This document shows positions 27,003-43,898 of a DNA stretch of 64,000 nt, in pieces. Numbering within the stretch: position 1 is the first letter of the stretch; the number at the start of each line of letters is the position of its first letter. The stretch comes from Nocardioides sp. Kera G14. GTDB taxonomy: Bacteria > Actinomycetota > Actinomycetes > Propionibacteriales > Nocardioidaceae. Below the pieces are notes generated by a model. The model had not been told where the DNA came from. It saw only the letters and a program-made list of their open reading frames with translations, and did no database searches. The DNA lies in the NCBI RefSeq assembly GCF_020715565.1, contig NZ_CP085839.1, positions 186,001-250,000 of the forward strand, read 5' to 3'. The position numbers were made by a program, and so were the translations under genes.

Positions 27003-27014
27003 CCGCACCCGCCG

Positions 27015-27095
27015 AAAGGGTCACCGTGACCCTTGCCGCTGTGCGTGACCCTTGCGAAAGGTCACCGACAGCGCGAAGCATCACGGTGACCCTTT
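27015..27095. repeat. nested palindrome between convergent cysA and rrf2-type genes
   Basis: Perfect 15-bp outer arms (27015-27029 with 27081-27095) enclose a second stem: CGCTGT at 27037-27042 with ACAGCG at 27068-27073, then GTGACC at 27045-27050 with GGTCAC at 27060-27065. The left arm continues as its own near-palindrome, AAGGGTCACCGTGACCCTT. It could work as a bidirectional terminator for the two convergent genes, or be a dispersed repeat. No T-tract is present. Confidence 0.7.
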
Positions 27096-27098
27096 GGC

Positions 27099-27714: not shown

Positions 27715-28401
27715 ATGGGGCAGGACTCCGCGGGCGCCTCTCCGATGTCGAGCAGATCCAGCCAGGCCTACGAGGATCTTCGGGATCTGCTGCTCGCTGG
27801 GCGATTTCCGCCGAACACACGGCTCACCGAGGCTGAGCTGACGGACATGCTCGAGGTCTCGCGTGGAACGGTGCGGGCAGTTCTCGTCCGGCTGGTTCAG
27901 GAGGGGTACCTGACGAGCGAGCCGAACGTCGGCGTACGCACGCGCTTCATCTCGATCCCCGAGGCACTCGCGATCCTGGAGGCGCGCGAGACGCTCGAGT
28001 CTGCGCTGGCCGAGAAGGCCGCCGAGCGCGCCACAGACGAGGAGCTCGACGAGCTGGTCGAGGTCTGCGACGAGATGAGTGCTTCTGAGTACGTCGAGTC
28101 GGAGGCCGTGTACTCGCGACTGAACCGGCGGTTCCATCAGTTGATCAGGGACTCAGCACGGCAACCGATCCTCACGACCTTCGCCGACTCGCTCGTCTAC
28201 CCGCTGGTGATGCGCCAGTACCGCGACCTGACGCATACGAGTCCGCGGCAGATGGCGCGGATCGAGCACCGGGCCATCCTGTCGGCTCTGCAGACGCGGA
28301 ACACTGACGCTGCTGCCGCAGCCATGCGGCACCACACGGCGTCGGCCCGCCGATCGCTCCTCAAGAGCGTTCAGTCGGATCGAGATGACCCGGTTGAGTA
28401 G
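27715..28401 (+). CDS. GntR-family regulator, FCD type (paralogue 1)
   Basis: A 228-residue regulator with an N-terminal winged helix (about 17-80; SQAYEDLRDLLLAGRFPPNTRLTEAELTDML and SRGTVRAVLVRLVQEGYL) and a C-terminal FCD ligand-binding domain. The FCD histidines in FHQLIRD and IEHRAILSAL could bind metal and an organic acid. It is a close paralogue of 42899-43570; the two bracket the catabolic island. GAGGAG lies before ATG 27715; ATG 27745 is an alternative start. Its 3' end overlaps the convergent MFS gene by 31 bp. It probably represses island genes in response to an acidic metabolite (inference). Confidence 0.9.
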   Translation: MGQDSAGASPMSSRSSQAYEDLRDLLLAGRFPPNTRLTEAELTDMLEVSRGTVRAVLVRLVQEGYLTSEPNVGVRTRFISIPEALAILEARETLESALAEKAAERATDEELDELVEVCDEMSASEYVESEAVYSRLNRRFHQLIRDSARQPILTTFADSLVYPLVMRQYRDLTHTSPRQMARIEHRAILSALQTRNTDAAAAAMRHHTASARRSLLKSVQSDRDDPVE

Positions 28402-29660
28402 GTCGGGTGGAGGGGCGCGCCTCGGAGCCGGCGACTGAGTGCGGCACCGAGGAGAAGCGTCGGAATCGCCCCGGCGACGAGTGCCCATCGACTGCCGGCG
28501 TGCTCGCCGATGGCGCCGACCAGCGGCCCTCCCACGACCGCGCTGCCGGTCCAGCTGATGGCCCAGAGTGACATCACCCTTCCTCGCATGTCCGGCCGCG
28601 CCGCGAGCTGCATGACGGATTTGGCGGTGGCGTTGAGGCTCATGCTCGCGTAGCCGACGACGGCCAGCAGGGCGAGCTCGGTGAGGAGGGTCGGAGCCAG
28701 TGCCGCGGCGAGGCTCGCTACGCCCCAGCACAGGCAGGTGACAGGCAGCGTGCGATGGCTGGGAGGGGTGTCGCTCCCGGCCACGTTGATCCCCGCCACG
28801 ACGGAGCCCACCGCCATTGCGGCTGCCATCCACCCATAGGTGCGAGCATCGCCGGAGAAGGCGTCGACGGCGAGGAGCGGCAGCGTCGTCGGGTACTCGT
28901 AGGCGAAGGTGCCGGTGACCGCCAGCATCAACAACGGCAGCGCGATCTCGGGGGTCCGCGCCGTGTACCGCCAGCCTTCCCGGAGTTGTCCTCGCTGCTT
29001 CGCCACGGGAGTGGAGGCCCGGATCTGGGATCCGCTCATCATCGCGAGGCTCAGGATGACGACGAGGAACGTCGCCGCGTTGACCAGCAGCGCCGTGGAT
29101 GCGCCCAGCGTTGCGACCAGGGCGCCTCCGAGCAGCGCGCCCACCGCGCGCGCCACATTGACGGATACCGAGTTGAGCACCACGGCATTGGCGAGTACGT
29201 CGCGCTCGACCAGTTCGCCGATCAGGCCTTGCCGTGCCGGATTGTCGAGCACCAGCAACGACCCCATGACGAGGAGGACGACCAGGACAACGGGGTAGGA
29301 CGCCCGATCGGTGTGGGTGAGCACGGCAAGGATCAGTGCCCCCACCGACGAAAGGGCTTGGGTGACGTACAGGACCTTGCGCTTGTTGCTCCGGTCGGCG
29401 ACCAGGCCACCCCAGGGTCCGAGAACGAAGAGTGGCGCGAGCCTGGCTGCGATGGCGGTCCCGAGCGCCGCGCCGCTGTGGGTGAGATCGAGGACCAGGA
29501 AGGCGACGGCGACCAGCTGCATCTGGTTGCCGACCACCGAGACCGTCTGGCCGAGGAAGTAGAGCCGATAGTTCCGCACCCGCAAGGACGCGCCAGCCCG
29601 CCGGAAGCGGGCCACGAGCGCGGGGAGGTGGAGCTCGCCTGCGCCGAGCAACCTCGTCAA
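28371..29660 (-). CDS. MFS exporter, EntS/MFS_3-like
   Basis: A 429-residue major-facilitator protein with about 12 helices, of the EntS/enterobactin-exporter-like group (RNYRLYFLGQTVSVVGNQMQLVAVAFLVLDLT; GGLVADRSNKRKVL). It is the last gene of the leftward catabolic operon, starting at a TTG that overlaps the stop of the ABC ATPase gene (TTGA). Most members of this group export small molecules, so it may expel a toxic intermediate. The substrate is unknown. The TTG start has no clear Shine-Dalgarno sequence and depends on coupling; a later start near residue 16 is possible. Confidence 0.82.
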   Translation of the reverse strand: MTRLLGAGELHLPALVARFRRAGASLRVRNYRLYFLGQTVSVVGNQMQLVAVAFLVLDLTHSGAALGTAIAARLAPLFVLGPWGGLVADRSNKRKVLYVTQALSSVGALILAVLTHTDRASYPVVLVVLLVMGSLLVLDNPARQGLIGELVERDVLANAVVLNSVSVNVARAVGALLGGALVATLGASTALLVNAATFLVVILSLAMMSGSQIRASTPVAKQRGQLREGWRYTARTPEIALPLLMLAVTGTFAYEYPTTLPLLAVDAFSGDARTYGWMAAAMAVGSVVAGINVAGSDTPPSHRTLPVTCLCWGVASLAAALAPTLLTELALLAVVGYASMSLNATAKSVMQLAARPDMRGRVMSLWAISWTGSAVVGGPLVGAIGEHAGSRWALVAGAIPTLLLGAALSRRLRGAPLHPTYSTGSSRSD

Positions 29661-30835
29661 CTGGCGAGGTAGCTGGTGCTCGCCGGGTCGAGTCGGACTC
29701 CCACCCTGTCGCCGGGCCTCACACCGGAGCCTGATCGGGCGAATGCGGTGATCCGCACCTCTGCGGCGCCCACGACGACCTCCAGCCGGTCGCCGAGGAA
29801 CTCGGCGGACTCGACCACGGCGGTGAAGTCGCAGTCGCCTGGATCGTCGGTCGCCTCCAGGCGGCGTACCTCCACGTTCTCCGGGCGGACGAAGACGAAC
29901 CCTCCCTCGCCCTGGGTCCCCGTCGATCCGGCAGTCCGCCGCCCACAGTGCAGGGTGCCGACTGCCGTGCTCGCAAGCACATCACCCGCGGTGTCCTGGG
30001 ACGCCAGCTCCACCGGCACCAGGTTCGCACTGCCGATGAAGTCCGCCACGAAGGCGGTGCGCGGGAAGTCGTAGACCTCTTCGGGAGTTCCGATCTGCTC
30101 CACCACGCCGCTGTTCATCACCACCACCGTGTCGGACATCGTCAGTGCCTCGGTCTGGTCGTGGGTGACGAAGAGCGCGGTGATCCCGAATCGCTGCTGG
30201 AACTCGCGGAGCTCGTGCCGCAACCGGACCCGGAGCTTCGCGTCCAGGTTCGACAGTGGCTCGTCGAGCAGGAGCACCTCCGGGTCGCCGAGGAGCGCCC
30301 GGGCCAGGGCCAGGCGTTGCTGTTGTCCGCCGCTCAGCTGCGTTGCCCAGCGGTCGGCCATACCGGCCAGGCCCACCTGCTCGAGCACCTCGAGCGTCCG
30401 GGTGCGGGCGTCGCGCCTCGGCATCCGGTGGCGGCCGTGGCGCAGGGGGAAGGCGGCGTTGTCCAGCACCGTCATGTGGGGCCAGATGCCGTAGGACTGG
30501 GGCACCATCGCGATGGGCCGGTCCTCGGTCCGGACGATGCGTCCTCCGGCGGAGTCGAAGACGACCTTGCCGCCCATGGTGATCCGCCCCTCCGTCGCCT
30601 GCTCCAGCCCGGCCACGCAGCGCAGTGTCGTGGTCTTGCCGCAGCCGCTCGGCCCGAGCAGGGTGACCAGGGATCCTTGTGGAATCTCGAAGGAGACGCC
30701 GTCGATGGCGTAGGCCGACCCCTTCTTGACGGCCCGGTCGTAGGACTTCCGCAGCCCTTCGATCAGGACGCTCCCCGACGGACTTGGCGTTGTCGCCTTC
30801 ATGTCGTTCGCCCTCCGGTTGCTTAACACGGTCAT
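29657..30835 (-). CDS. ABC transporter ATPase with TOBE domain
   Basis: A 392-residue ATPase of the FbpC/PotA/UgpC group. It has Walker A GPSGCGKTT (61-69), Q-loop PQSYGIWPHMTV, signature LSGGQQQRLALARAL, Walker B LLLDEPLSNLD, FVTHDQTEA, and a TOBE_2-like C-terminus (FVRPENVEVRRLE). The ATG at 30835 overlaps the permease stop (ATGA); an in-frame ATG at 30802 would cut 11 residues. It energises the fused permease upstream. The set resembles ferric-ion importers, but its place in a catabolic operon favours an organic acid. Confidence 0.92.
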   Translation of the reverse strand: MTVLSNRRANDMKATTPSPSGSVLIEGLRKSYDRAVKKGSAYAIDGVSFEIPQGSLVTLLGPSGCGKTTTLRCVAGLEQATEGRITMGGKVVFDSAGGRIVRTEDRPIAMVPQSYGIWPHMTVLDNAAFPLRHGRHRMPRRDARTRTLEVLEQVGLAGMADRWATQLSGGQQQRLALARALLGDPEVLLLDEPLSNLDAKLRVRLRHELREFQQRFGITALFVTHDQTEALTMSDTVVVMNSGVVEQIGTPEEVYDFPRTAFVADFIGSANLVPVELASQDTAGDVLASTAVGTLHCGRRTAGSTGTQGEGGFVFVRPENVEVRRLEATDDPGDCDFTAVVESAEFLGDRLEVVVGAAEVRITAFARSGSGVRPGDRVGVRLDPASTSYLAS

Positions 30836-32610
30836 GCTGCTTCCTCCACTCCGCCGCGGCGGTTGACCAACCACATGGTGATCATCGAGACGACGAGGAG
30901 AGTCACCGCCAGGGCGCTCGCCTCCGGGTAGTTGACACTCGAGGTGAAGCTGTCCCACAGGAGCACCACGAGCGTCTTGTTGTCCGAGCCGGTCAGCAGC
31001 AGCGCGATCGGCAGCTCGCCGAGGGCGTGGGCGAAGACCCAGAACCAACAGGTGACCAGTGCGGGCCTGAGCAGTGGCAGCACGACCGTGCGGGTCACGG
31101 TGAGACGCGAGGCGCCGGCGACCCTCGCCGCCTCCACCAACCCGTCGTCGAGTTGCATGAGGGCCGTGTGGACCACGCGTGATCCGCGGGGCAGGAACCG
31201 AGTCACCAGGGCGACGACGATGATCCACACCGTTCCATAGATGCCGACGGGAACGAAGAGGTAGACGAAGAGCACTGAGACTCCCAGGACCACGCTCGGA
31301 ATGCCGAAGACGAGGAAGGTCGACTCGAACAGGAAGGTGCTCCCGGGAAACTGGCGCCGTGCCGCGGCAAGCGCCAGCCAGATCGAGATCGCCGTGGTCA
31401 CCGTGGCGGTCACCAGGACCACTTCGGCGGTGTTGATCAGGACCTGTCCGAACTCGCTGCTGGTGAACACGTTCCGGTACGGCGCCAGGGTCATGCTGTT
31501 CAGGCCCGACAGGCTCATCGGCCGGCTGTGAGGGGAGAGGCTGGTCCACAGCAGCGCAAGGATCGGAAGGACGACGGCGATCGCCATGTAGACCAGGACC
31601 AGTGCGACCAGTGGCAGGCGCCAGCGGCCGAGAGAGGTCCGGTTGGCGCGGTAGCCCTTGCCCGAGACCACCTTGAAGCGGTCGGCATCGCGGACCCTCC
31701 GACGGTAGACCAGCAGCATCACCATCGAGAGCACGAGGACCAGGACGCCGTACGCGCTGGCCTGGCCGTAGTTGGCGACACCGCTCGGAGGCTGGAGCGA
31801 GTACTGGATCAGGCTGCTGTAGACGAAGATCTGGTGCGGAAGGCCGAGGATGGCCGGGATGGCGAAGCCTTCGAGCACCACGACGACCATGAGCATGGAT
31901 GCTGCTGCCACGGCAGGGACGACGAGCGGGAAGACGATCAGACGCAGGCGCCGAGTCAGTGAGGCGCCCGCGGTGGCGGCGGCCTCTTCGAGCTCAGGAT
32001 TGAGCCGTGCGAAAGCCGGCGCGAGCATCAGGTACATGCTCGGCATGCCGAAGATCCCGGTCACCATGATCATCCCCGGCAACGAGTAGATGTTCAGCTG
32101 CAGACCGAGGAGCTGGCGGAGCATCACGGCCAGCGGACCGTTGGCAGGGTTGGCCGCCAGCGCCCAAGCGATCGCAGTGACCGTCACGGGAATGGCCATT
32201 GGCGCAAGCGCTGCCGGTCCGAGGAGTCGCCTTCCGGGAAGGTCGGTGCGCTCGAACAGGTACGCCAGGCTGAGGCTGAGTGCCAGAGCGACGGCGAGTG
32301 AGCCGACGACGTAGATCGCCGTGTTCAGCGTGACCGAGCCGATCCTGGATGAGGAGAAGACTGCCTGGAAGTTGGAGAGGGAGAGGCCGGGCACTTGGAA
32401 CGGAAGCTCCGTGGTGGTGGGCTTCAGGCTGCTGTAGATCAGGATCGCCAGCGGCACCAGCACGAGGTAGCTGACCAGGATGATCATCGCGAGGTTCACC
32501 AGCGGGCCGAGCAGGGATCCTGCTCTGCTCCGCCTTCTCGGCGTGTGACCGCTTCCTCGACGAGGAGGATCCGTTGCTGCGACCACCGGTTCGGTCGTCG
32601 TCATGCCCAT
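30832..32610 (-). CDS. two-domain fused ABC permease (FbpB-like)
   Basis: A 592-residue permease with about 12 helices, made of two BPD_transp_1 halves in one chain. Each half has an EAA loop: LEEAAATAGASLTRRLRLIVFPLVVPA and LVEAARVAGASRLTVTRTVVLPLLRPA. This layout is typical of the ferric/thiamine/2-aminoethylphosphonate import group. A long polar N-terminus (about 37 residues) precedes the first helix. It starts 34 bp after the binding-protein gene and overlaps the ATPase gene. Confidence 0.92.
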   Translation of the reverse strand: MGMTTTEPVVAATDPPRRGSGHTPRRRSRAGSLLGPLVNLAMIILVSYLVLVPLAILIYSSLKPTTTELPFQVPGLSLSNFQAVFSSSRIGSVTLNTAIYVVGSLAVALALSLSLAYLFERTDLPGRRLLGPAALAPMAIPVTVTAIAWALAANPANGPLAVMLRQLLGLQLNIYSLPGMIMVTGIFGMPSMYLMLAPAFARLNPELEEAAATAGASLTRRLRLIVFPLVVPAVAAASMLMVVVVLEGFAIPAILGLPHQIFVYSSLIQYSLQPPSGVANYGQASAYGVLVLVLSMVMLLVYRRRVRDADRFKVVSGKGYRANRTSLGRWRLPLVALVLVYMAIAVVLPILALLWTSLSPHSRPMSLSGLNSMTLAPYRNVFTSSEFGQVLINTAEVVLVTATVTTAISIWLALAAARRQFPGSTFLFESTFLVFGIPSVVLGVSVLFVYLFVPVGIYGTVWIIVVALVTRFLPRGSRVVHTALMQLDDGLVEAARVAGASRLTVTRTVVLPLLRPALVTCWFWVFAHALGELPIALLLTGSDNKTLVVLLWDSFTSSVNYPEASALAVTLLVVSMITMWLVNRRGGVEEAA

Positions 32611-32644
32611 GTGTCCTCATCTCTCCGTTCGTGATGGTCGACGT

Positions 32645-33724
32645 CTAGCCGACGTCGGTCCCGAGGGCCTTCTCCGCCTGGGGGAAGAAGTCCGTGAGCT
32701 GGTTGTACGCCGCGATGTCGGGCGTCGGGAACCACTCGAGGTGGGCAGCACAGATCGCTGTGAGCACCGCGTTCTGACCGGGGTCTGAGCAGTCGGTGCT
32801 CGCCGGGATCCGTGAGTTGTAGGTCTTGGCCAGGGCCGCCTGCGCCTCGTCACTGGAGAGGAAGGAGGTCAGGAGGACGGCCGCGGCGGGATGCGGTGCG
32901 CCCGTGGGCACGTACAGGTAGCTCTCGTTCGCGTTGGTCGGCGAGATCGGGGCGACCGCGACCGGGGCGCCCTTCGCCTGCGCGTCGAGCACGAGGTTGA
33001 TCAGGCTGGTGCCGATGCTCACCTGTCCGGACTCGATCGGCGCCTCCGACTCCGTCGTCGTCGGGGTGTAGTGCGGCTTCTGGGCGGCGAACTTCGTCGC
33101 CCAGGCGGTGGCCTTGGCCGCCCCGAGATCCGGGTCGAGGTCCCAGGCGGTCATGAAGGACGCACGTGCCTCTGCCGAGATCTTCCCGCCGGACCACTTC
33201 GGGTCGAGCAGGTCGTCCCAGCTCTTCGGTACGTCGGCGGCGGAGACCTTGTCGGTGTTGTAGGCCCAGACCTTCGGCACGGCCCAGATGTAGACGAACT
33301 TCTTCTCGAAGATGTCGTCACTCCCGATGCCGTACTTCGTCCAGTCGACGTCGTCGGCGAGGGGCGCCGACGGAACGACCGTGAGCCCTCCGGCATTGGC
33401 AACGTCGACAGAGACCTTGTGGGCCGCCTGCTCGACCTTGATCTGACTCACCTGGTCAGGAGCCTTGGTGTTGGTGTACTTCACCTTGATACCGGGGTAC
33501 TTCTTCTCGAACAGGTCGATGGCCGGCTGCATCTGCTCGATCGGCTTCGGTGCTGACCAGTTGACCACGCCGTCGTCCTCGGCCTGGCTGATGAGCTTGT
33601 CCATGGACGTGGGCAGATCTGCTGCCGACGACGTACTGCCGCCGCAGGCCGTGAGACCTGCTCCGGTCACCAGCAGCGCAGCCGCCAGGGCGAGCGGTCG
33701 ACTGCGCCATTGCATGTTGTTCAT
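32645..33724 (-). CDS. ABC transporter substrate-binding lipoprotein (FbpA-like)
   Basis: A 359-residue binding protein with a lipoprotein signal peptide (lipobox LTACG, Cys27). The mature part resembles extracellular binding proteins of the Fe3+/spermidine/phosphonate clusters (NWSAPKPIEQMQPAIDLFEKKYPGIKV; KSWDDLLDPKWSGGKIS). ATG 33724 is chosen because AAAGGAGG precedes it at the right distance; an upstream in-frame start would add 19 residues before the signal peptide. It is co-transcribed with an amidohydrolase upstream and its permease downstream, so its ligand is probably a substrate of the island's enzymes (inference). Confidence 0.9.
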   Translation of the reverse strand: MNNMQWRSRPLALAAALLVTGAGLTACGGSTSSAADLPTSMDKLISQAEDDGVVNWSAPKPIEQMQPAIDLFEKKYPGIKVKYTNTKAPDQVSQIKVEQAAHKVSVDVANAGGLTVVPSAPLADDVDWTKYGIGSDDIFEKKFVYIWAVPKVWAYNTDKVSAADVPKSWDDLLDPKWSGGKISAEARASFMTAWDLDPDLGAAKATAWATKFAAQKPHYTPTTTESEAPIESGQVSIGTSLINLVLDAQAKGAPVAVAPISPTNANESYLYVPTGAPHPAAAVLLTSFLSSDEAQAALAKTYNSRIPASTDCSDPGQNAVLTAICAAHLEWFPTPDIAAYNQLTDFFPQAEKALGTDVG

Positions 33725-33777
33725 TGTTCCTCCTTTGGAACCTGTCGAACTGTCGTTCAGTGCCGTCGAGCGTGTGC

Positions 33778-34641
33778 TCATCGGGTGGCCGGGGGGCCGT
33801 AGACGCGGGTGGCGTTGCCGCTGAGGACCGCGGAGAGCGCGTCCTCGTCGAGCCAGTGGAGGCGCTCCTCGATGCCGTCGCGCAGTTCACGCAGCGAGCC
33901 CTCGGAGGCCGGGAAGTTGGACCCCCACATCACCTTGTGGGCTCCGAAGGTCTCGACCAGGCGCTTGAGCACCTCGGTCGTGTCGGCGCCGGGCTCGGCG
34001 TCGAGCCGGTTGAGTGCCGGTGGCGTGATCTTGAGGTGGACGCCGTCGTACTTCGCCAGTTGGCCCAACTCATCGAGCAGGGCGTACGGCGGCCCGCCGG
34101 CCGCATTGGGCCGGCCCAGGTGGTCCAGCAGGACCGTCAGGCCTGGATGCGATCCGAGGACCTGGAGGAGCTTGTCCGTGTCCTTGGAGTGCATCTGGAT
34201 GCAGACCGGAACCTCCTGTGCGGCGACGTACTCCCACACGCCGGCCATCCGCTCGTCGGCCACGCCGGAGCCGGGGGTGGGCACCTTGGTGGTGCCGTCG
34301 GAGACGCGGATGCGAACTCCTGAGAAGCCGCGCTCCTCGATCCAGTGGCGCAGGTCCGCCACCGCCGTGTCGGCGAGGAAGTCGACGGAGCAGACACCGA
34401 TCAGTCGGTCGGGGTAGCGGGCGAGGGCATCGGCGGCGTACGAACTGTCGAATCCATAGACCGTCGAGGCGTGCACGAGGGCGGCCCGTTGCACGCCGGC
34501 GTCATCGAGCGCTCGGATGAGCCCATCGACGTCGACCGGCCGCACCTGTGACCACTCCGAGTGTGTGCCCCCCAGAGGGGAGTGCGGATAGGTGGCGGTG
34601 TCAGGGGAGATGGCGTGAGTGTGGGTGTCGAAGTAGTCCAT
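33778..34641 (-). CDS. amidohydrolase, LigI-like lactonase family (paralogue A)
   Basis: A 287-residue TIM-barrel amidohydrolase (COG3618 type). DTHTHAIS at residues 5-12 is the metal-site HxH, DHLGRPN the second histidine region, and MWGSNFPAS carries the end-of-barrel motif. This group includes 2-pyrone-4,6-dicarboxylate lactonase (LigI) and 4-sulfomuconolactonase. It and the gene at 42014 share the opening pattern P.SPLGG..S.W...RPV and are paralogues, so a related lactone or cyclic ester is the likely substrate. The start overlaps the upstream stop (TGATG). The exact reaction is unassigned. Confidence 0.82.
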   Translation of the reverse strand: MDYFDTHTHAISPDTATYPHSPLGGTHSEWSQVRPVDVDGLIRALDDAGVQRAALVHASTVYGFDSSYAADALARYPDRLIGVCSVDFLADTAVADLRHWIEERGFSGVRIRVSDGTTKVPTPGSGVADERMAGVWEYVAAQEVPVCIQMHSKDTDKLLQVLGSHPGLTVLLDHLGRPNAAGGPPYALLDELGQLAKYDGVHLKITPPALNRLDAEPGADTTEVLKRLVETFGAHKVMWGSNFPASEGSLRELRDGIEERLHWLDEDALSAVLSGNATRVYGPPATR

Positions 34642-36472: not shown

Positions 36473-36522
36473 GACAGGGCCTTCCTTTCAGGGCTGGGAT
36501 GGGGCTGGGGGGACATGGGCGC

Positions 36523-38175
36523 TCAGACGTCCTCGGCGAAGTGCAGCCGTCGGTAGGGGACGCTGAGCACCTCCCGGCTGATACGCACGTCGATCACCGT
36601 CGGACCCGGGTTGGCGAGGTACCTTCCGACCGCTTGCTGCAGGTCGGCCATCGTGCGAACGGTGGCTCCGCTGCCGCCCATGGCGAGAGCGATCGCCCCC
36701 AGGTCGGGTGACGGAATGGCCGAGAGCTCCGGGCGCAGCCCGTGGGCAGCAGACTTGTGGAACTCGGCGCCGAGTGCCTCGTCGTTCATCACGACGATGA
36801 GGACGGGCCAGCCGTAGCGGACGGCGGTGTCGAACTCGGCCAGGTGCATGATGAAGCTCGCGTCACCCTCGATGACGACGGTGGGCTGACGGCCCCGGCC
36901 CAAGCTCCAGCCCATCGTGATGAGCGGTGCCTGTCCGATGGCGCCGAACATGCCGTAGTTGCTGACGATCTCCCGCGGACGCGTGAAGAGCATGGTGCCG
37001 AAGTCGACCTGGTGCCCGCTGCCGAGCACGAGTGGAAGCTCTTGCGGCATCAGCTCGTCGAGAGCCAGGACGACCTCGCGAGGGTCGAGGCGCCCTTCCT
37101 CGCGGTGGAACGACTCGCGCAAGGTGTCGGCCTCCCGCAGCCGGGCGGCGATGTCCTCGTCGTGGAAGCCCTCGCTTCGAGTTGGGTTGTTGCGGAGGAC
37201 CTCGAGCAGCCGGTCGAGCGAAGCGCGAGCGTCGCCGCGGACGTAGCAGTCGACCGGCTGACCGGTGCCAGTGACGACCTGGTCGGCGTGATCGAGCTGG
37301 ATCATCCGCGCCGCCGGGTAGAGGTAGCCGTGTTCGGTGGTGAACTGGTTGAGGCTCGCCCCGACGGCAATCACACAGTCGGCCTCCTGGAGCAGCTCGT
37401 GTGCCGCCTGAGTGCCGTAGAGGCCCGAGATCCCGGCGTAGTAGGGCGTGCGGTCCCGAAGCCAGTTCTTCACCTGCAGGGTCGTTGCGACGAGCGCCCG
37501 GGTCAGCTCGGCCAGCTCGACGACCTGGTCGCCTGCGTCGGCGGTCCGTGCACCCCGCCCGATCAGGACGACGACCCGCTTGCTCTCCTCGATGATCGCC
37601 GCCGCCTCCCGGATCCTTGCCGGGTCGGGGATCCGGGGAGCGGCGTCGACCAGCTCGGTCGACGTCAGATAGAAGGGTGCACCATCGAACTCCTCGAGCT
37701 GGACGTCGAAGGGTGCGCTCACCATGACCGGCCGGGACTTGGTCCGGGCCAGCCAGAATGCCCGCCGAACCGCGTCCTGGGCCTTGGTGGCCGTCAACAC
37801 GTGGACGAACTCGCACTCGACGCCTTCGGCGAACTTCTGCTGGTCCAAGTACTGCGTCGCGGTGAGGTCACCACGGGCGGACTCGCCACAGAAGAGCACC
37901 ATCGGGGTCCGGGCGCGGCTGGCACACACCAGGCTGGTGGCGAGTTGGGTGACGCCGGGACCACTCGTGGTGGTGGCGACCCCAACCTTCCCGGCCCCTC
38001 GCGCCCATCCGTCAGCCATGGCGAGGCCGGAGCCCTCATGGCGCGCCTCGAGGAGTTCGACGCCCCGCTCGGCCATCGCATTCATCCAGTGCATGTTGGC
38101 GTCGCCCATCATCCCGTAAACGGTGGTGGCACCCTCGGCGACGAACGCCTCCGCCATTGCCTCATAGACCTTCAC
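36523..38175 (-). CDS. thiamine-diphosphate-dependent enzyme of unknown specificity
   Basis: A 550-residue member of the acetolactate synthase/benzoylformate decarboxylase superfamily. The catalytic glutamate is Glu47 (ARHEGSGLAMADGWAR), and the ThDP-Mg motif starts GDASFIMHLAEF and ends VVMND (about 433-461). The middle domain (VVVLIGRGAR; IAVGASLNQF) is intact. It does not match acetolactate synthase, oxalyl-CoA decarboxylase or sulfoacetaldehyde acetyltransferase well enough to name. In the operon it lies between LigJ-like hydratase and the decarboxylase-like pair, so it may act on a 2-oxo acid made by the aldolase. GTG start with AGGAGAGG upstream. Confidence 0.85.
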   Translation of the reverse strand: MKVYEAMAEAFVAEGATTVYGMMGDANMHWMNAMAERGVELLEARHEGSGLAMADGWARGAGKVGVATTTSGPGVTQLATSLVCASRARTPMVLFCGESARGDLTATQYLDQQKFAEGVECEFVHVLTATKAQDAVRRAFWLARTKSRPVMVSAPFDVQLEEFDGAPFYLTSTELVDAAPRIPDPARIREAAAIIEESKRVVVLIGRGARTADAGDQVVELAELTRALVATTLQVKNWLRDRTPYYAGISGLYGTQAAHELLQEADCVIAVGASLNQFTTEHGYLYPAARMIQLDHADQVVTGTGQPVDCYVRGDARASLDRLLEVLRNNPTRSEGFHDEDIAARLREADTLRESFHREEGRLDPREVVLALDELMPQELPLVLGSGHQVDFGTMLFTRPREIVSNYGMFGAIGQAPLITMGWSLGRGRQPTVVIEGDASFIMHLAEFDTAVRYGWPVLIVVMNDEALGAEFHKSAAHGLRPELSAIPSPDLGAIALAMGGSGATVRTMADLQQAVGRYLANPGPTVIDVRISREVLSVPYRRLHFAEDV

Positions 38176-38231
38176 GATCGGTTGTCCTCTCCTGTGTTCG
38201 TCTTGTCGTTGCTGCTGGCAGGTCGGCCGCG

Positions 38232-39302
38232 TCAGGAGACGGCGACCGGGATGGAGAGCGCTGTCTCGGGCAGGGTGATCCCGCGCTCGTCGAGGGCGGC
38301 CGCGAGCCGGGGGAAGACCCGCAGCGCATTGCCCGACGAGATCGCCGAGAGGTCGTCCTGGCTCACTCCGTCCAAGGACTCCAGCAGCGACCTGGTGTCG
38401 TCGTATCGCCGCCCTCGCGACGGGTCGATGCCGCGGACGGCGCCGATCATCTCGGAGGCGAAGAGGATGTTGGAGGAGGGCACCGTGTCGACGAGGAGCT
38501 GCATTCCGCGCTGCCAGTAGACGCAGGTGTCGAAGAAGACGTTGCGCCCGATGAGCTCGATGAGATCACCGCGGCCCTGGTCCAGCATGACGCCCTGGTA
38601 ACGGCCCCAGTGGTAGGGCACTGCGCCGCCGCCGTGCGGGATGATCAACTTCAGGTCGGGGAAGTCCCGGAAGAGATCGGAGAGGCACAGTTGCATGAAG
38701 GCGGTGGTGTCACCGTTCAGGTAGTGGGCGCAGGTGCCGTGCACAGCCGGGTTCGCCGACATCGACGCATGCACCATCGCAGGCACGCCGAGCTCGACCA
38801 TCGCCTCGTAGAGGGGGTAGTAGGAGCGGTCCGTGATCGGGGGCGCCGCCCAGCTCCCGTCCGAGGGATCGGGGTTGAGATTGCAGCCGACGAAGCCGAG
38901 GTCCTCGACACATCGGTGCAGCTCCTCGACACAGGCGTCGATCGGCGATCCCGGCGACTGCGGCAGCTGCGCCACTCCGACGAAGCTCTGTGGGAAGAGC
39001 TGGACCGCCCGGTACACCGTGTCGTTGGCGAGACGCGACCAGGTGGTGCTGGTCTCCTGATCGCCGTAGTGGTGCGCCATCTTTCCTGCGATCGGCGACA
39101 GGAGGGAGAGGTCGATGCCGTGTTCCGCCTGCAGAGCCAGTTGGCCACTCGTGAGCGCCTGGACCAGCTCGTCGTCTGAGATCTCGATGCCGTCGGGTGA
39201 GAGGTGCCCGCCGTGCTCCTCATATTCCGCGATCTGGCGGTCGCGCCACTCCTTGAGGGCGTCGGGGACGGTGGTGAAGTGCGTGTGGCAGTCGATGTAC
39301 AT
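38232..39302 (-). CDS. ligJ: 4-oxalomesaconate hydratase-like amidohydrolase (LigJ family)
   Basis: A 356-residue amidohydrolase-fold lyase. From memory of the LigJ family, the matching segments are MYIDCHTHFTT (metal HxH), the SWAAPPITDRSYYPLYE region after NLNPDP, HGGGAVPYHWGR, and FASEMIGAVRGIDPSRG. LigJ adds water to 4-oxalomesaconate, giving 4-carboxy-4-hydroxy-2-oxoadipate, in protocatechuate 4,5-cleavage. The aldolase that would split that product is the next gene upstream. ATG 39302 follows GAGGAGG; an extra in-frame start 45 bp upstream has no such site. Its specificity is inferred. Confidence 0.82.
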   Translation of the reverse strand: MYIDCHTHFTTVPDALKEWRDRQIAEYEEHGGHLSPDGIEISDDELVQALTSGQLALQAEHGIDLSLLSPIAGKMAHHYGDQETSTTWSRLANDTVYRAVQLFPQSFVGVAQLPQSPGSPIDACVEELHRCVEDLGFVGCNLNPDPSDGSWAAPPITDRSYYPLYEAMVELGVPAMVHASMSANPAVHGTCAHYLNGDTTAFMQLCLSDLFRDFPDLKLIIPHGGGAVPYHWGRYQGVMLDQGRGDLIELIGRNVFFDTCVYWQRGMQLLVDTVPSSNILFASEMIGAVRGIDPSRGRRYDDTRSLLESLDGVSQDDLSAISSGNALRVFPRLAAALDERGITLPETALSIPVAVS

Positions 39303-39327
39303 GGATGCCTCCTCAGGGGGACGGGAA

Positions 39328-40176
39328 TCAGCGACCGGCGAGGGCACGGCCGCGGTCGAGACCGGGGTACTTCACGACAGGGGCGGTCAGGAGCACTCGG
39401 TAGCCGTCGGCAAGAACCTGCTCGACGTTCGCCTGCGTGACATGCGGGTGGGCGACCGCGACGCCATGTGCGGCGCACGTCGCGAGAACCCGTCGCTTCA
39501 GCTCCAGGACGGTCGGATGCTCATACTCGCGAGGGAGCCCGAGCTCCTGGCTGAGGTCGCCCTCGCCGATCATGATCAGGCCGATGCCGGGAACTTCGCC
39601 CAGGATGTCGTCGAGGTTCTCGATCGCCTGGACGCTCTCGATCATCAGGACGACGAGGATCTCCCCGGAGGGGGCGAGGGGCCAGACATCGGCCCGCTGG
39701 TAGTACTCCGAGGTGGGGATGCCCCAGTACCGGGCCGCCCACGCCGGGCTGTCTCCGCGGAGCCCCGGCGGTTCTTCCTTGGGCCGGTCCAGCCGGGGAT
39801 AGCGACAGGCGGACACCGCATTGCGCGCGTCCTCCACGGTGTCGATGTGGGGCCAGACGACGCCGAAGGCTCCGAGATCGAGAGCCTGCTTGGCGTGCCA
39901 CTGCGAGCGCTCCCCGCCGTTGGCCGGAATTCGCACGATGGGTGTGATGGGAGCAGTGACCGTCTCGGCGCCGACGAGCTGACGCCGGTCGAGCAGGTAC
40001 TGCAGGGCGTCCTTGAGCAATGGGGCATCCCACGGCTTGTGCTCCGCTTCGAAGAGGACCAGGTCGTAGGCGACGTCGCGCACAGAGACAGCCGCGGCCG
40101 GCTCGGGTGCGGCAAAGCCGCCGAAGACAGTCGCACCCTGCTCGAGGAGCGCGATGACACGGTTGAGGCGAGTCAT
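39328..40176 (-). CDS. HpcH/HpaI-family aldolase
   Basis: A 282-residue class II (metal-dependent) aldolase of the HpcH/HpaI/macrophomate-synthase fold. VLFEAEHKPW holds the likely base histidine, MIESVQAIENLDDIL the metal glutamate, and IGEGDLSQELG the second acidic ligand. The family cleaves 4-hydroxy-2-oxo acids to pyruvate and an aldehyde or oxo acid. Next to a LigJ homologue it could split 4-carboxy-4-hydroxy-2-oxoadipate into pyruvate and oxaloacetate in place of LigK (inference). ATGA overlap with the upstream gene. Confidence 0.85.
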   Translation of the reverse strand: MTRLNRVIALLEQGATVFGGFAAPEPAAAVSVRDVAYDLVLFEAEHKPWDAPLLKDALQYLLDRRQLVGAETVTAPITPIVRIPANGGERSQWHAKQALDLGAFGVVWPHIDTVEDARNAVSACRYPRLDRPKEEPPGLRGDSPAWAARYWGIPTSEYYQRADVWPLAPSGEILVVLMIESVQAIENLDDILGEVPGIGLIMIGEGDLSQELGLPREYEHPTVLELKRRVLATCAAHGVAVAHPHVTQANVEQVLADGYRVLLTAPVVKYPGLDRGRALAGR

Positions 40177-40772
40177 GCGCCCGACTTCCTCGCGTGGGTT
40201 CGGGCCTGACGAGAGGCTCGTAGATCGCGGACGCGCCGCCACACGCGACCGAGCCAGGCGGTGAGGCGCTGCGCTGCTGGGGTGTGCGGAACCAGAGCGG
40301 CGCCCCGGCCGGCGGTCGCGGGGTCCCGTTCGGCGCAGGTCGCCTCGAGTTTCTCGCTGAACGTCCGGGTCATCCGGTCAACGACGACTGCCGCACCCGT
40401 GGTGACCAAGGACGCCAGCTGTCCGTTCAGTTCGATGACGCCGTCGAGAGCGACCTCCGAGCCGGTCGCCGTGGGGCTCACGGCGAAGGCCGCGTTCCCC
40501 TGGACTCGTGTGGACCCGCGGGAGTCGGCGCCTCGCGCCTCCATCCGTCCGGTCCGCTCGGCCTCATCCAGGTCCAACGAGATGCGCGCGGCGAATCCGA
40601 CCTTGATCGCGGCGAACTTGACGGCGAGACGAGCATCGAAGGTTCCGTCCTCATGCTGCTCTCCCAGCTCGGACCCGTCGATGCAGGAGACGACCGTGGC
40701 CGGGTCCGACAGCACCTCCCACACGATCTCGGGCGGGTGGGGCACGCGAATGCGTTCCGCGATGGTGATCAA
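40173..40772 (-). CDS. CoxG-like SRPBCC protein
   Basis: A 199-residue protein of the START/SRPBCC fold, CoxG (CO dehydrogenase subunit G) type: RVPHPPEIVWEVLSDPATVVSCIDGSEL near the start and FSEKLE near position 140, then a basic tail. CoxG proteins are usually found with molybdenum hydroxylases, but none is present here. It is the first gene of the leftward 11-gene operon. It starts at TTG 40772 behind AGGAG; the 5' leader carries an operator-like TTGTTTAACAA. Its role in the pathway is unknown. Confidence 0.82.
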   Translation of the reverse strand: MITIAERIRVPHPPEIVWEVLSDPATVVSCIDGSELGEQHEDGTFDARLAVKFAAIKVGFAARISLDLDEAERTGRMEARGADSRGSTRVQGNAAFAVSPTATGSEVALDGVIELNGQLASLVTTGAAVVVDRMTRTFSEKLEATCAERDPATAGRGAALVPHTPAAQRLTAWLGRVWRRVRDLRASRQARTHARKSGA

Positions 40773-40792
40773 GCTGCATCTCCTACCAAGAG

Positions 40793-40803
40793 TTGTTTAA
40801 CAA
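40793..40803. promoter_or_regulatory. operator-like palindrome, leftward operon
   Basis: TTGTTTAACAA is a perfect palindrome around one central base (TTGTT-T-AACAA). It sits 16 bp downstream of the leftward -10 hexamer and 20 bp before the TTG start. It matches the site at 40980-40990 at 10 of 11 positions. FCD-GntR regulators commonly use such short TTGT-N3-ACAA sites. Confidence 0.6.
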
Positions 40804-40819
40804 TCTGGTTCGATGGCCG

Positions 40820-40825
40820 ACCGTA
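40820..40825 (-). promoter_or_regulatory. -10 hexamer of the leftward 11-gene operon
   Basis: TACGGT on the minus strand, identical to the -10 of the divergent operon, with the operator-like palindrome directly downstream. Confidence 0.5.
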
Positions 40826-40965
40826 GCAACATTCGTGGGGGATGTGAAGGGGGTCACACAAATCGACGAAATTAGTCAGCTAGGCGCTGTTGTCGCGCTC
40901 GATCGCCGAGCGTACGGCGTCGATTTCTCAGCCCTCCGCACGGTGCGTGGCGGCACGTTGCGTGC

Positions 40966-40971
40966 TACGGT
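40966..40971 (+). promoter_or_regulatory. -10 hexamer of the rightward operon
   Basis: TACGGT, followed after eight bases by the operator-like palindrome. Transcription should start near 40978, so a bound repressor would block initiation. Confidence 0.5.
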
Positions 40972-40979
40972 CAACTCAA

Positions 40980-40990
40980 TTGTCTAACAA
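40980..40990. promoter_or_regulatory. operator-like palindrome, rightward operon
   Basis: TTGTCTAACAA lies at the expected transcription start, 14 bp before the ATG at 41005. It differs from the 40793-40803 site only by C for T. Confidence 0.6.
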
Positions 40991-41004
40991 AACATGGAGC
41001 CCCG

Positions 41005-41964
41005 ATGAAGTCTTTGACCCTTGCGCTCGGCCACTACGCCCACTCGGCTGCGGTGGAGGACGGCCGGGCGCCGGTGGACGGTTACGTCACCAAGCCGGTG
41101 GAGGTGCGGCCGATCATTGCCGCGTACCGGCGCATGATTCGCGACCTCGAGTTCGATGTCTGCGAGCTCGCGCCCGTCTCTTACCTCATGGCCCGGGATG
41201 CCGGCATCCCGTTGGTCGCCATCCCTGTGTTCCTCAATCGCCGTTTCCATCACGGGGACATCCAGTGCTCACCGAACTCCGGCATCCGGACACCCCGGGA
41301 CCTCGAGGGGCGTCGTGTCGGCGTTCGTGCTTATTCGGTGAGCACGGGGGTGTGGGCGCGCGGTGTCCTCACCGAGGAGTACGGCGTGAACCTGAGCCAG
41401 GTCACCTGGGTCGTCGACGACGATGACCACATCGAGGGCCGCTCGCCCGACAACGTCGAACGCGTCGAGGACGGACGGTCCCTGGGCGAACTGTTGGCGG
41501 CGTCCGAGATCGACGCGGCCTTCACCGGCAACGCCGGGACGGGACGCGCCGGGAACCCGGCGACGGGATGGGAGGCGGCCGCGGACGAGCCGGCGTCGAC
41601 GTACCCGCTCTTCGCCGACCACGAGGTGCTCGAGCGTGACTACTACCTGCGCACGGGGATCTATCCGCTGCACTCGGTCGTCGTGCTGCGCGCCGAGCTC
41701 GTCGAGCAGGATCCGGACCTGCCCACCAAGCTCTACGCCGCGTTCTGTGACGGCAAGCGCGCCGCGCTCGACGAGGATCCGGATTTCACTGCGCTCCCGC
41801 GGCTCGCTCGTCAGGGAGCCATGATCGGGTCAGACCCCATCCCGTACGGCGTCGATTCGAACGCCGCGACGCTCGCAGCGCTTCAGCGCTTCAGTGCCGA
41901 TCAGGGTCTCCTACGTGGCCAGCCTGAGGCGCTCTTCGCGCCGGGCGACTATCCCGACTGCTGA
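41005..41964 (+). CDS. 4,5-dihydroxyphthalate decarboxylase-like protein (paralogue C)
   Basis: A 319-residue protein of the same group as 34641 and 35558. LTLALGHYAHSAAVEDG, FDVCELAPVSYLMARDAGIPLVAIPVF, RRFHHGD and GRRVGVRAYSVSTGVWARGVLTEEYGV are close to paralogue A, so the FHH and GRRVGV motifs are intact. There is no signal peptide. It is the first gene of the rightward operon, behind its own operator, with GGAG before the ATG. It could be the catalytic decarboxylase of the pathway, or a soluble ligand-binding protein. Confidence 0.75.
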   Translation: MKSLTLALGHYAHSAAVEDGRAPVDGYVTKPVEVRPIIAAYRRMIRDLEFDVCELAPVSYLMARDAGIPLVAIPVFLNRRFHHGDIQCSPNSGIRTPRDLEGRRVGVRAYSVSTGVWARGVLTEEYGVNLSQVTWVVDDDDHIEGRSPDNVERVEDGRSLGELLAASEIDAAFTGNAGTGRAGNPATGWEAAADEPASTYPLFADHEVLERDYYLRTGIYPLHSVVVLRAELVEQDPDLPTKLYAAFCDGKRAALDEDPDFTALPRLARQGAMIGSDPIPYGVDSNAATLAALQRFSADQGLLRGQPEALFAPGDYPDC

Positions 41965-42013
41965 CCCAAGCCACTCACCAAGCCGAACCAGCCCAAGGAG
42001 CAGAAGAAGCATC

Positions 42014-42862
42014 ATGCATGTCGTCGACAGTCACTGCCACATCATCTCGCCCAACACGGATCTCTTTCCGCGCTCGCCGTTGGGAGGGAAGCAGTCGGCG
42101 TGGGCGAGCGATCGGCCCGTGACGGCGGAGGGACTCCTCGCGCTGATGGACGAGTCAGGCATCGACCAGGCAGTCCTCGTCCAGGCCACCACCGCCTACG
42201 GCTACGACAACAGCTACGTGATCGACTCCGCGCAGAGGTGGCCCGACCGCTTCGCGGCTGTCGGAACCTTCGATCCGCTCGCGACGGACGCTGCCGGTCG
42301 GCTCGCCAAGGGAATCGCCGAGGGACTCGTCGGTGTCCGATTGTTCACGACGGGTAGCACCATGTCCGAACAGGGAATGTGGTTCGCCGAGGAGTCGACG
42401 GACGAGTTCTGGACCGCTGCCTCGAAGGCCCGCATCCCCGTCTGCCTCCAGCTCCGATTGGGTGAAGACACCCGTGCGGCCCTCGACCTGCTGCTGAGTC
42501 GACACCCGGAGGCGACGGTGCTGTTGGACCACTGCGGATACCCGGACGTTGTCGCGTCGCCGGGTGCGGCGGCGGAGCTGGTCACCTCCTTCGCCGGTGC
42601 TGGCGGCCTGAATCTCAAGCTCACACATCGCACCCTCGAAGGCCTCCAGCATCTCGGACCGTCCGCGGCGGCCGACTTCCTCGAGCCACTCTTTGCGAAG
42701 TTCGGTGCTGAGCGGGTGGCGTGGGGCTCCAACTGTCCGGCCGCCGACCAGCCGATGTCGGAACTCGTTGCACTGGCTCGCGACGTCCTTGGTTCCTATG
42801 ACGATGACACGCAGGCGGCGGTCTTCGGTGGAACGGTGAGCCGGCTCTACTCGCTGGCCTGA
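42014..42862 (+). CDS. amidohydrolase, LigI-like lactonase family (paralogue B)
   Basis: A 282-residue TIM-barrel amidohydrolase paralogous to 33778-34641. VDSHCHIIS gives the HxH metal motif, VLLDHCGYPD the next histidine and VAWGSNCPAA the C-terminal strand. The family includes 2-pyrone-4,6-dicarboxylate lactonase. Two diverged copies in opposite operons suggest two different but related lactone substrates. ATG 42014 is preferred over longer in-frame starts because AAGGAG precedes it and the protein then begins immediately before the metal motif. Confidence 0.82.
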   Translation: MHVVDSHCHIISPNTDLFPRSPLGGKQSAWASDRPVTAEGLLALMDESGIDQAVLVQATTAYGYDNSYVIDSAQRWPDRFAAVGTFDPLATDAAGRLAKGIAEGLVGVRLFTTGSTMSEQGMWFAEESTDEFWTAASKARIPVCLQLRLGEDTRAALDLLLSRHPEATVLLDHCGYPDVVASPGAAAELVTSFAGAGGLNLKLTHRTLEGLQHLGPSAAADFLEPLFAKFGAERVAWGSNCPAADQPMSELVALARDVLGSYDDDTQAAVFGGTVSRLYSLA

Positions 42863-42898
42863 CGCGCTGGAGGTCGGACGCCAAGAGGAGAAGCCCGG

Positions 42899-43570
42899 AT
42901 GAACCTGGAGATCGTGCAATCCGAGGCGACGGGACAGTCGAGCCGGTCCGTCCAGGCGTACGAGGACCTGCGCAATCTCATCGTCTCCGGCCATTTCGTG
43001 CCGAACGCGCGATTGACCGAGGCGGAGCTGACGACTCTCCTCGACGTGTCCCGCGGCACCGTGCGATCGGTGATCGTCCGGCTGGCTCAGGAGGGATATC
43101 TGACCAGGGAACCGAATCGCGGCGTGCGAACGCGACTCTTCACCGTCGAGGAGGCCGCAGCTGTGCTCGAGGCTCGCGAGACACTCGAGTCGGCGCTTGC
43201 AGGGAAGTGCGCAGAGCGGGCGACCGACAGCGAGGTCGAGCTGCTCGGCGCGACGTGGGACGAGATGCGCGAGGCGGATCAGACCGGTGACGCTGCGCGG
43301 TACTCGGAACTCAACAGGGCGTTTCACCGCTACATCCGCGAGGGCGCCCGGCAGCCGATCATGGTGGGTTTCGTTGATCGTCTGATGTACCCACTGGTGA
43401 TGCGTCAGTTCCGGGACCAGACCCGCTCACACCCGCGGGCGAACTCGTTGGGCGAGCACGAGGCGATCCTTGCCGCCATCCGCACGCGCAATGCGGACGC
43501 GGCTGCGGCGGCGATGCGCCACCACGTCTCGTCGGCGCGGCGGGCGCTGCTGCTCAGTACTGCGCGCTGA
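42899..43570 (+). CDS. GntR-family regulator, FCD type (paralogue 2)
   Basis: A 223-residue paralogue of the regulator at 27715, sharing VQAYEDLRNLI.SG.F.PNARLTEAEL, SRGTVRSVIVRLAQEGYL and a C-terminal MRHHVSSARRALL. The winged helix is at about 16-80 and the FCD effector domain follows, with probable metal histidines (FHRYIRE, EHEAILAAI). Last gene of the rightward operon, so it is probably autoregulated through the site at 40980-40990. AGAGGAGAAG precedes the ATG. Confidence 0.9.
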   Translation: MNLEIVQSEATGQSSRSVQAYEDLRNLIVSGHFVPNARLTEAELTTLLDVSRGTVRSVIVRLAQEGYLTREPNRGVRTRLFTVEEAAAVLEARETLESALAGKCAERATDSEVELLGATWDEMREADQTGDAARYSELNRAFHRYIREGARQPIMVGFVDRLMYPLVMRQFRDQTRSHPRANSLGEHEAILAAIRTRNADAAAAAMRHHVSSARRALLLSTAR

Positions 43571-43808: not shown

Positions 43809-43817
43809 ACAGTTGTG

Positions 43818-43898
43818 TGGCGGGTGAAGGATTCGAACCTTCGAAGCTTTCGCGACGGATTTACAGTCCGCTCCCATTGGCCGCTCGGGCAACCCGCC
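43818..43898 (-). tRNA. tRNA-Tyr (GTA)
   Basis: Class II tRNA of 81 nt with a long variable arm. The acceptor stem GGCGGGT pairs with ACCCGCC; the anticodon loop CTGTAAA gives anticodon GTA; the T loop is GGTTCGAATCC. CCA is not encoded. Its 3' end faces the catabolic island. Confidence 0.95.

Follow-up and report, generated by a model that had tools for sequence, protein, structure and literature searches.

A gene island around a LigJ-type hydratase, LigI-fold and Pht5-like proteins in Nocardioides sp. Kera G14: a candidate catabolic module for a polycarboxylate

Introduction

The lower part of the protocatechuate 4,5-cleavage pathway runs through LigI, LigU, LigJ and LigK, with LigU performing an allylic isomerisation. 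An island of 15 genes in the actinomycete Nocardioides sp. Kera G14 resembles this pathway in that a LigJ-type hydratase is encoded beside a pyruvate-type aldolase, with LigI-fold proteins nearby. It differs in that no LigAB, LigC, LigU or LigK domain was found in the island, the aldolase is of the HpaI and not the RraA type, the LigI-fold proteins have an asparagine at position 248, and genes for a thiamine diphosphate (ThDP)-dependent enzyme, a CoxG-like protein and three Pht5-like proteins are added. The island lies within a stretch of 64,000 nucleotides (C1:186001-250000 of the single-contig, 3.47 Mb genome), here called the window, to which all positions refer, between a CysA-type gene (26052-27002) and a tRNA-Tyr gene (43817-43898).

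We propose, with about even confidence, that the island encodes a catabolic module which would hydrate and aldol-cleave an oxalomesaconate-type tricarboxylate to pyruvate and oxaloacetate. The lower end of this route, comprising the hydratase (J) and the aldolase (K), appears to be its best-supported part, judging from protein family, catalytic residues and fixed adjacency. The gene set and its order recur in dozens of genomes and are beyond chance. A sequence-only reading of the window had described a complete uptake-and-breakdown unit; a coherent unit with regulators and with a LigJ hydratase next to a pyruvate-type aldolase is indeed what was found, but completeness is not demonstrated, and four of seven proteobacterial versions contain a dioxygenase gene.

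Among the closest known systems are the LigJ clusters of Variovorax (L093) and Streptomyces (L094), which have LigJ, a LigI-type protein bearing the aspartate (seen in L093) and an RraA-like gene; as in the island, no ring-cleaving enzyme is annotated near LigJ in the Variovorax cluster. Unlike the island, neither cluster was found to contain K, and the LigJ of L094, although actinobacterial, falls outside the clade of the module. Searches of the open-licence literature yielded no publication on this cluster, which does not prove that none exists.

Layout of the Island

The 15 genes, lettered A to O, and the intergenic region from which two of the transcription directions diverge are as follows.

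27715..28401, plus strand: A, GntR/FCD regulator (Pfam FCD and GntR; 63.5% identity to O by blastp)
28371..29660, minus strand: B, MFS_3-type transporter, perhaps an exporter (Pfam MFS_3, E 8e-49)
29657..30835, minus strand: C, ATPase of an ATP-binding cassette (ABC) importer with TOBE domain (Pfam; start corrected)
30832..32610, minus strand: D, fused ABC permease with two BPD_transp_1 stretches (Pfam)
32645..33724, minus strand: E, substrate-binding protein of the ferric-ion/PhnS-like class with lipobox-like N-terminus (Pfam SBP_bac_6)
33778..34641, minus strand: F, LigI-fold amidohydrolase with Asn at the Asp248 position (Pfam; LigI in the PDB, E 6e-8)
34641..35561, minus strand: G, Pht5-like PBP2-fold protein, probable decarboxylase or lyase (9jp7, E 7e-20; subfamily residues)
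35558..36472, minus strand: H, Pht5-like PBP2-fold protein (34% identity to G)
36523..38175, minus strand: I, ThDP-dependent enzyme of the acetolactate-synthase-like superfamily (Pfam TPP N/M/C)
38232..39302, minus strand: J, LigJ-type 4-oxalomesaconate (2-keto-4-carboxy-3-hexenedioate, KCH) hydratase (PDB 2gwg, E 1.1e-120)
39328..40176, minus strand: K, HpcH/HpaI class II pyruvate aldolase (Pfam PF03328; PDB)
40173..40772, minus strand: L, CoxG-like SRPBCC protein with basic aromatic C-terminal tail (Pfam COXG, E 1e-10)
40773..41004, no strand: divergent intergenic region, presumed shared promoter/operator (from position alone)
41005..41964, plus strand: M, Pht5-like PBP2-fold protein conserved across phyla (9jp7, E 7e-37)
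42014..42862, plus strand: N, LigI-fold amidohydrolase with Asn at the Asp248 position (alignment; structure model)
42899..43570, plus strand: O, GntR/FCD regulator (Pfam)

The coordinates confirm the eleven leftward genes that had been read from 40772 to 28371 (in the order L, K, J, I, H, G, F, E, D, C, B), which overlap or are separated by at most 56 bp: five of the ten junctions are overlaps, or six if E starts at 33781, and the widest gap lies at 38176-38231. M, N and O run rightward from the intergenic region shared with L, while the regulator A at the far end faces B, so that the three rightward genes counted earlier (starting at 41005, 42014 and 42899) become four once 27715-28401 is included. 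Several starts in the mechanical list of open reading frames (ORFs) are spurious within the island, the probable true ones lying at about 30835 for C, 35561 for G, 39302 for J, 40176 for K and 42014 for N. The island contains several sets of paralogues, with blastp identities of 63.5% between A and O, 37% between F and N, and 31-35% among G, H and M.

Domain and homology searches also matched each of the three decarboxylase-like proteins, the ThDP enzyme and the importer named by the sequence-only reading, and its statement that a ring-cleaving dioxygenase and a LigC dehydrogenase are absent stands for the 15 products scanned with Pfam. The exporter is present as the MFS_3 protein B, for which export itself is only a possible function. 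Of the LigI, LigJ and aldolase classes, the hydratase, an HpaI aldolase and the LigI fold are all there, while LigI as a lactonase is not supported.

Hydratase J and Aldolase K

J is the one enzyme of the island whose identity as a LigJ-type hydratase is firm from its sequence. It matches PDB entry 2gwg at E 1.1e-120 over residues 1-341 and 6dxq at 3.7e-117, and His6, His8, His178, His223 and Glu284, which we take to be the metal and catalytic residues of LigJ, are retained in 54/54 sequences (53 of the 56 from module loci and that of the window). Here and below, sequences with in-frame stops were left out of the counts (three for J, two each for C and G, one each for H and L). By its title, a PDB entry holds the E284Q variant of LigJ in complex with the substrate (3Z)-2-keto-4-carboxy-3-hexenedioate.

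K belongs to the HpcH/HpaI aldolase family by Pfam (PF03328) and PDB matches. His45, Arg70, Glu149 and Asp175, presumably the residues of the HpaI class II aldolases, are retained in all 56 K sequences (55 from the loci and the window's), and the RraA-like domain of the LigK type (PF03737) has no Pfam match among the island products. K probably stands in for LigK. A role as the aldolase of the module fits with locus L017, where K is missing and an RraA/LigK-like gene lies some 3 kb away from J.

A tree of J was built from 35 sequences: 24 of the 56 module loci with J, the J of the window and ten labelled "other," although one of these (L098) proved to come from a locus with the module. The J proteins of the actinobacterial modules form one clade (100/99), separate from LigJ linked to LigI or RraA. 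Outside this clade lie the LigJ proteins of L094 and L104, with LigI- or RraA-type neighbours, and of L100 and L102, with RraA- and Pht5-like neighbours. Since the proteobacterial module J sequences are unresolved in the tree, J gives no evidence for transfer of the module as a unit between phyla. Furthermore, 11 of 24 host genomes encode a second LigJ-like protein (51-57% identity) besides the module J (62-76%), and the two proteins of one host may act on different substrates.

Conservation Among Actinobacteria

Loci were recruited by a profile search of genome contigs with an alignment of 20 relatives of the ThDP enzyme I, and the best 80 of 131 were taken with up to 10 kb on each side. They comprise 49 actinobacterial loci with J (L011-L059) and 31 others; the presence of I in 49/49 follows from recruitment by I. 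Pfam was run on representatives of the shared neighbour families and not on each gene of each locus. J is found in 49 of the actinobacterial loci, K in 48, N in 47, G in 46, M in 45, L and an O-type regulator in 44 each, H in 40 and F in 25. K, J and I are contiguous on one strand in 46 of the 49, and overlap slightly in two more (L025 and L034). The exception, L017, is without K and has RraA-like, DHDPS-family and LigI-type genes beside the module. Genes of the same three families accompany K in L015, where the LigI-type gene has Asp248, and K occurs with RraA-like and DHDPS-like genes in L016. The remaining 31 loci (mostly Betaproteobacteria, two Chloroflexota and one Actinomadura) have the ThDP gene and are without J, G, H, M and N, K being matched once, at 28%. 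The case that was to refute the sequence-only reading, an order conserved nowhere else, did not hold when the gene set was sought in other genomes.

In L015:2732-7571 and L017:4558-8517 the RraA-like, DHDPS-family and LigI-type genes are joined by a LysR-type gene, beside a reduced module. Additional genes in L018-L057 encode a DUF3500 protein (19 loci), a carboxylesterase (20), a beta-propeller protein of the lactonase family (18) and an NMT1-type binding protein (23), each family being identified from one representative; examples are L030:12613-13815, L028:17690-19279, L020:15976-16632 and L034:19001-21011. These additions hint at an ester or lactone precursor.

Proteobacterial Plasmid Versions and Ring Cleavage

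In a tblastn search of plasmids, K matched 599 records and M 167; among the matches listed (40 rows of each), the records with K at 52% or more number 11, and they coincide with those that have M at 40% or more (40-47% identity). These plasmids belong to Diaphorobacter, Acidovorax, two Paracoccus, Cupriavidus, Caballeronia, Burkholderia multivorans and four Paraburkholderia. Seven of the 11 were read (L092 and L105-L110), and each of them carries J, K and M together with an F-type protein and a further Pht5-like gene. A ThDP gene is found in six; it comes from subfamilies other than that of I, with 20-28% identity to I in the aligned cases, namely type PRK07586 in L105-L108, an 84% identical relative of that type in L109, and PRK08199 in L110, which suggests that a ThDP step is needed. 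L092 has no annotated ThDP gene and carries, within its cluster, a VOC dioxygenase related to catechol-type extradiol dioxygenases. A LigB-family gene, named protocatechuate 3,4-dioxygenase in the records, lies inside the cluster in L105 and L108, and in L109, the Burkholderia multivorans plasmid, an 86% identical LigB is separated from J by about 18 kb and adjoins a second gene of the M type (L109:29495-32954). With LigB-type enzymes in three of the seven loci and a VOC-type enzyme in one, ring cleavage looks like a variable front end on a constant core. The sequence-only reading that the substrate enters below ring cleavage, which agrees with the lack of a ring-cleaving enzyme in the island itself, may thus hold for some hosts only.

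The dioxygenase genes raise the alternative that the island is the lower part of an aromatic degradation pathway, in which a polyhydroxylated aromatic acid (e.g. derived from gallate or tannin) is cut by a dioxygenase and the island processes the ring-opened product; depending on the host, the dioxygenase would be encoded inside the cluster or at another place in the genome. The plasmid loci L105, L108, L109 and L092 speak for it, as does a match to LigB (PF02900) in 22 of 24 actinobacterial host genomes, which were reached through 25 of the loci. By contrast, no gene is annotated as a dioxygenase in the stretch read of L107, and tblastn at E 1e-4 with four dioxygenases (the LigB of L105, the VOC protein of L092, and the LigB and intradiol-type proteins of the window's own genome) gave no match in the 49 actinobacterial loci, which were not annotated gene by gene. 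The genome-wide search covered LigB, while VOC and intradiol enzymes were sought in the fetched stretches with one query each. No LigB match was obtained in two host genomes, the drafts of Sinomonas humi (G453) and Paenarthrobacter nitroguajacolicus (G454). In none of the 24 does LigB lie within 100 kb of the module J on the same contig, many contigs being shorter than this, and the nearest is about 112 kb away (G474). A LigB dioxygenase close to the module was thus rejected for the genomes searched, and the aromatic pathway as a whole is somewhat unlikely in our view, even though the genome of the window encodes two LigB proteins, one of which (C1:3117869-3118627) is clustered with a Pht5-type gene.

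This second site (C1:3117800-3124700 of genome G000; L111:9858-16676) is a separate aromatic cluster, with LigB followed by an apparent LigA-type stretch, an alpha/beta hydrolase, the Pht5-type gene, an intradiol-type dioxygenase and a FAD-dependent aromatic hydroxylase; hydantoinase-like ORFs were read from the sequence upstream of it. In Rhodococcus yunnanensis (G468), a LigB match adjoins a distant LigJ-like protein (38% identity) and not the module J.

LigI-Fold Proteins F and N

The LigI/COG3618 barrel fold is indicated for F by sequence, with a match to LigI in the PDB at E 6e-8, and for N by a model (pLDDT 92.9) whose fold comparison is topped by COG3618/LigI structures. Both proteins are 22-25% identical to LigI chains and retain LigI Arg124 and His180 (84/84 each for F and N together). 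They differ from LigI, the 2-pyrone-4,6-dicarboxylate hydrolase, at the position of Asp248, which is Asn in 48/48 N and 32/36 aligned F sequences (window proteins included), and 47 of 48 N proteins have Tyr at the Arg183 position. LigI mutants at Asp248 are inactive, and the LigI substrate complexes in the PDB are, by title, of the D248N and D248A mutants. With the catalytic aspartate replaced, F and N were rejected as working pyrone lactonases, contrary to the reading of a LigI lactonase made from the sequence alone, and are probably not lactonases. If the proposed module is right, they would provide a natural collection of LigI-fold proteins of the D248N type in which changes of chemistry in the amidohydrolase barrel can be studied.

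Pht5-Like Proteins G, H and M

The phthalate-pathway decarboxylase Pht5, which acts on 4,5-dihydroxyphthalate (Polaromonas naphthalenivorans CJ2 plasmid pPNAP04, L113; PDB 9jp7), is clearly homologous to M (E 7e-37 to 9jp7) and is matched by G (7e-20), while H, which has no Pfam or NCBIfam match of its own, is linked to it only via G (34% identity). Glu54, His83, Trp117 and Arg119 (M numbering) are common to Pht5 and the three proteins. In addition, G, H and M have Arg108, Thr114, Gly115 and His142. At these positions Pro/Ala, Ala, Asn and Glu are found in two references, Pht5 from the CJ2 phthalate cluster and a Pht5-type protein encoded in the genome of the window. By these residues the three proteins constitute a Pht5-fold subfamily of their own. 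Unlike the Pht5 phthalate cluster, the island has three paralogues together and is without oxygenase, reductase and diol dehydrogenase (no Pfam match to a phthalate oxygenase, its reductase or the diol dehydrogenase among the 15 products).

It is nevertheless conceivable that the island arose by decay or rearrangement from a phthalate/protocatechuate 4,5-cleavage cluster, with loss of LigAB and LigC, as its enzyme families are those of the pathway through Pht5, LigI, LigJ and the aldolase, and RraA-, LigJ- and Pht5-like genes occur together in other actinobacteria (L100 and L102). We consider decay very doubtful: the set is conserved as such in two phyla, the subfamily residues of G, H and M set them apart from both references, F and N lack Asp248, and J belongs to another clade.

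ThDP Enzyme I and CoxG-Like Protein L

I retains a catalytic-type Glu47 in 50/50 sequences and stays below all NCBIfam cut-offs among the 25 models listed of 54, reaching 238 bits against a cut-off of 538 for acetolactate synthase and 237 against 620 for sulfoacetaldehyde acetyltransferase. Its top sequence relative in the PDB is BbmA, titled a ThDP-dependent HKA synthase. Cyclohexane-1,2-dione hydrolase is a PDB relative as well (2.7e-27), which raises the alternative that I opens a ring hydrolytically, so that a cyclic dione or quinone-like polycarboxylate would be degraded without oxygen. The ThDP genes of other subfamilies in six of seven proteobacterial modules, the seventh (L092) having the VOC dioxygenase, would suit such a reaction. 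We judge it distinctly unlikely, given that this hydrolase is not among the closest relatives of I, that neither profile nor fold comparisons separate the ThDP subclasses, and that LigB and ThDP genes occur together in L105, L108 and L109.

L scores 41.7 bits against PF06240 (gathering score 22.2). Among the 31 loci outside the module, it precedes I on the same strand by no more than 400 bp in 19 and overlaps it in two more (L067 and L073), and it was not found in the seven proteobacterial modules, whose ThDP enzymes differ from I; L thus goes with I and not with the pathway. By an ad hoc rule, 38 of 43 actinobacterial L proteins and that of the window carry a basic, aromatic segment close to the C-terminus, as against only one of 22 relatives outside the module, which is a read-on artefact. 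The L-I pairing is therefore secure, while a membrane anchor is not, and the idea that the ThDP enzyme is generally anchored in the manner of CoxG was not upheld. CoxG adaptors are associated with CO dehydrogenase and, according to PMC11962113, CoxG-like proteins hold the glycerol-3-phosphate dehydrogenase of Sulfolobus at the membrane. L is of the same family and its partner is potentially redox-linked; it differs in that this partner is a ThDP enzyme and in that its non-module relatives are tailless. By analogy, a membrane- or quinone-linked ThDP step in the module is possible, if weakly supported.

Outside the module, the CoxG-like and ThDP pair of the betaproteobacterial metagenome-assembled genomes (L061-L090) is often found near TctC-type receptors and in some cases near coenzyme A-transferases.

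Transport and Regulation

Uptake would proceed via the importer C-D-E and control would be exerted by the two related GntR/FCD regulators A and O, as their families suggest. E has a weak NCBIfam match to PhnS, and its best PDB match is YfuA (E 1.7e-6). C, D and E are all found in 17 of the 49 actinobacterial loci, the counts of C including unrelated ATPases, and B-like genes also come after C in L012 and L013. The MFS_3 protein B, together with BbmA as the top PDB relative of I, could be taken to indicate a biosynthetic cluster that makes and exports a small molecule. Such a function is highly improbable, since importers are frequent (C, D and E as above, and the NMT1-type binding-protein family in 23 loci), J and K come from degradative families, and FCD regulators are typical of catabolic operons.

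The regulator pair at the island ends also appears as a 300-nt direct repeat of 71% identity (27747-28046 and 42937-43236).

A Candidate Pathway

In the route that we propose, the C-D-E importer would take up a polycarboxylic acid, from which G, H and M may remove carboxylates in upstream steps. I, with its partner L, might break a C-C bond adjoining a keto group, and F and N could carry out a non-hydrolytic step on the polycarboxylate, e.g. an allylic isomerisation like that of LigU. J would then hydrate a tricarboxylate of the 2-keto-4-carboxy-3-hexenedioate (oxalomesaconate) type, and K, as an HpaI-type metal aldolase in place of LigK, would cleave the product of J to pyruvate and oxaloacetate.

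Several observations weigh against this route. The argument that K replaces LigK is weakened by L015, which carries K and an RraA-like gene together, and relatives of J also occur without K. The J proteins of the proteobacterial modules fall outside the actinobacterial clade, beside the LigJ of L091 and L093, so that a single substrate common to all modules is not demonstrated. I is not bound to the pathway of the module, as it occurs without J in the 31 other fetched loci. F perhaps has no single function, since Asp is kept in four F sequences (L015-L017 and L092), and in L092 the protein of the F type has an identity of only 27% and is encoded some 5 kb away from J.

A more specific version combines LigI-fold isomerases bearing Asn, HpaI in place of LigK, successive decarboxylations on the Pht5 fold and a CoxG-linked ThDP enzyme into an oxygen-independent, actinobacterial module of a cross-phylum pathway. 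The Pht5-fold paralogues would then act on a ring-opened or non-aromatic polycarboxylate, and the CoxG-like partner would tie the ThDP enzyme to the membrane or quinone pool. We regard this combination as unlikely.

If the proposed module is right, it would be an uncharacterised route for an oxalomesaconate-type intermediate into central metabolism, in soil actinomycetes as well as in plasmid-bearing Burkholderiales and Paracoccus, and would explain proteins labelled "ABC transporter substrate-binding protein," "4,5-dihydroxyphthalate decarboxylase," "acetolactate synthase" and "amidohydrolase." Because compact gene sets exist in isolates, the identity of the substrate is a well-posed question.

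Acquisition and Flanking Sequence

The island is accessory and was probably acquired horizontally, as suggested by the presence of K (E at most 1e-40) in only one of 215 genomes of the genus, that of the window. The best ThDP match to I in 36 congeners has 35% identity, and J-type proteins (E at most 1e-80) were found in seven of 396 genomes sampled across the phylum, its own included. A protein search found relatives of I (75% identity) and G (68%) in Nocardioides sp. KR10-350, so that the island is rare in the genus and not unique. Attachment repeats were sought at the island and none were found. The flanking CysA-type gene, named from its sequence, is present at 75% identity or more and near full length in 49 of 58 congeners, with one partial match. 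Between this gene and the island lies an imperfect inverted repeat (27003-27107) with 51-nt arms of 76% identity. On the other side, near the tRNA-Tyr gene, a gene for a chorismate-binding enzyme (PF00425) occupies 45242-46459 on the plus strand, of which a 405-residue part was found at E at most 1e-80 in one of 59 genomes of the genus, its own.

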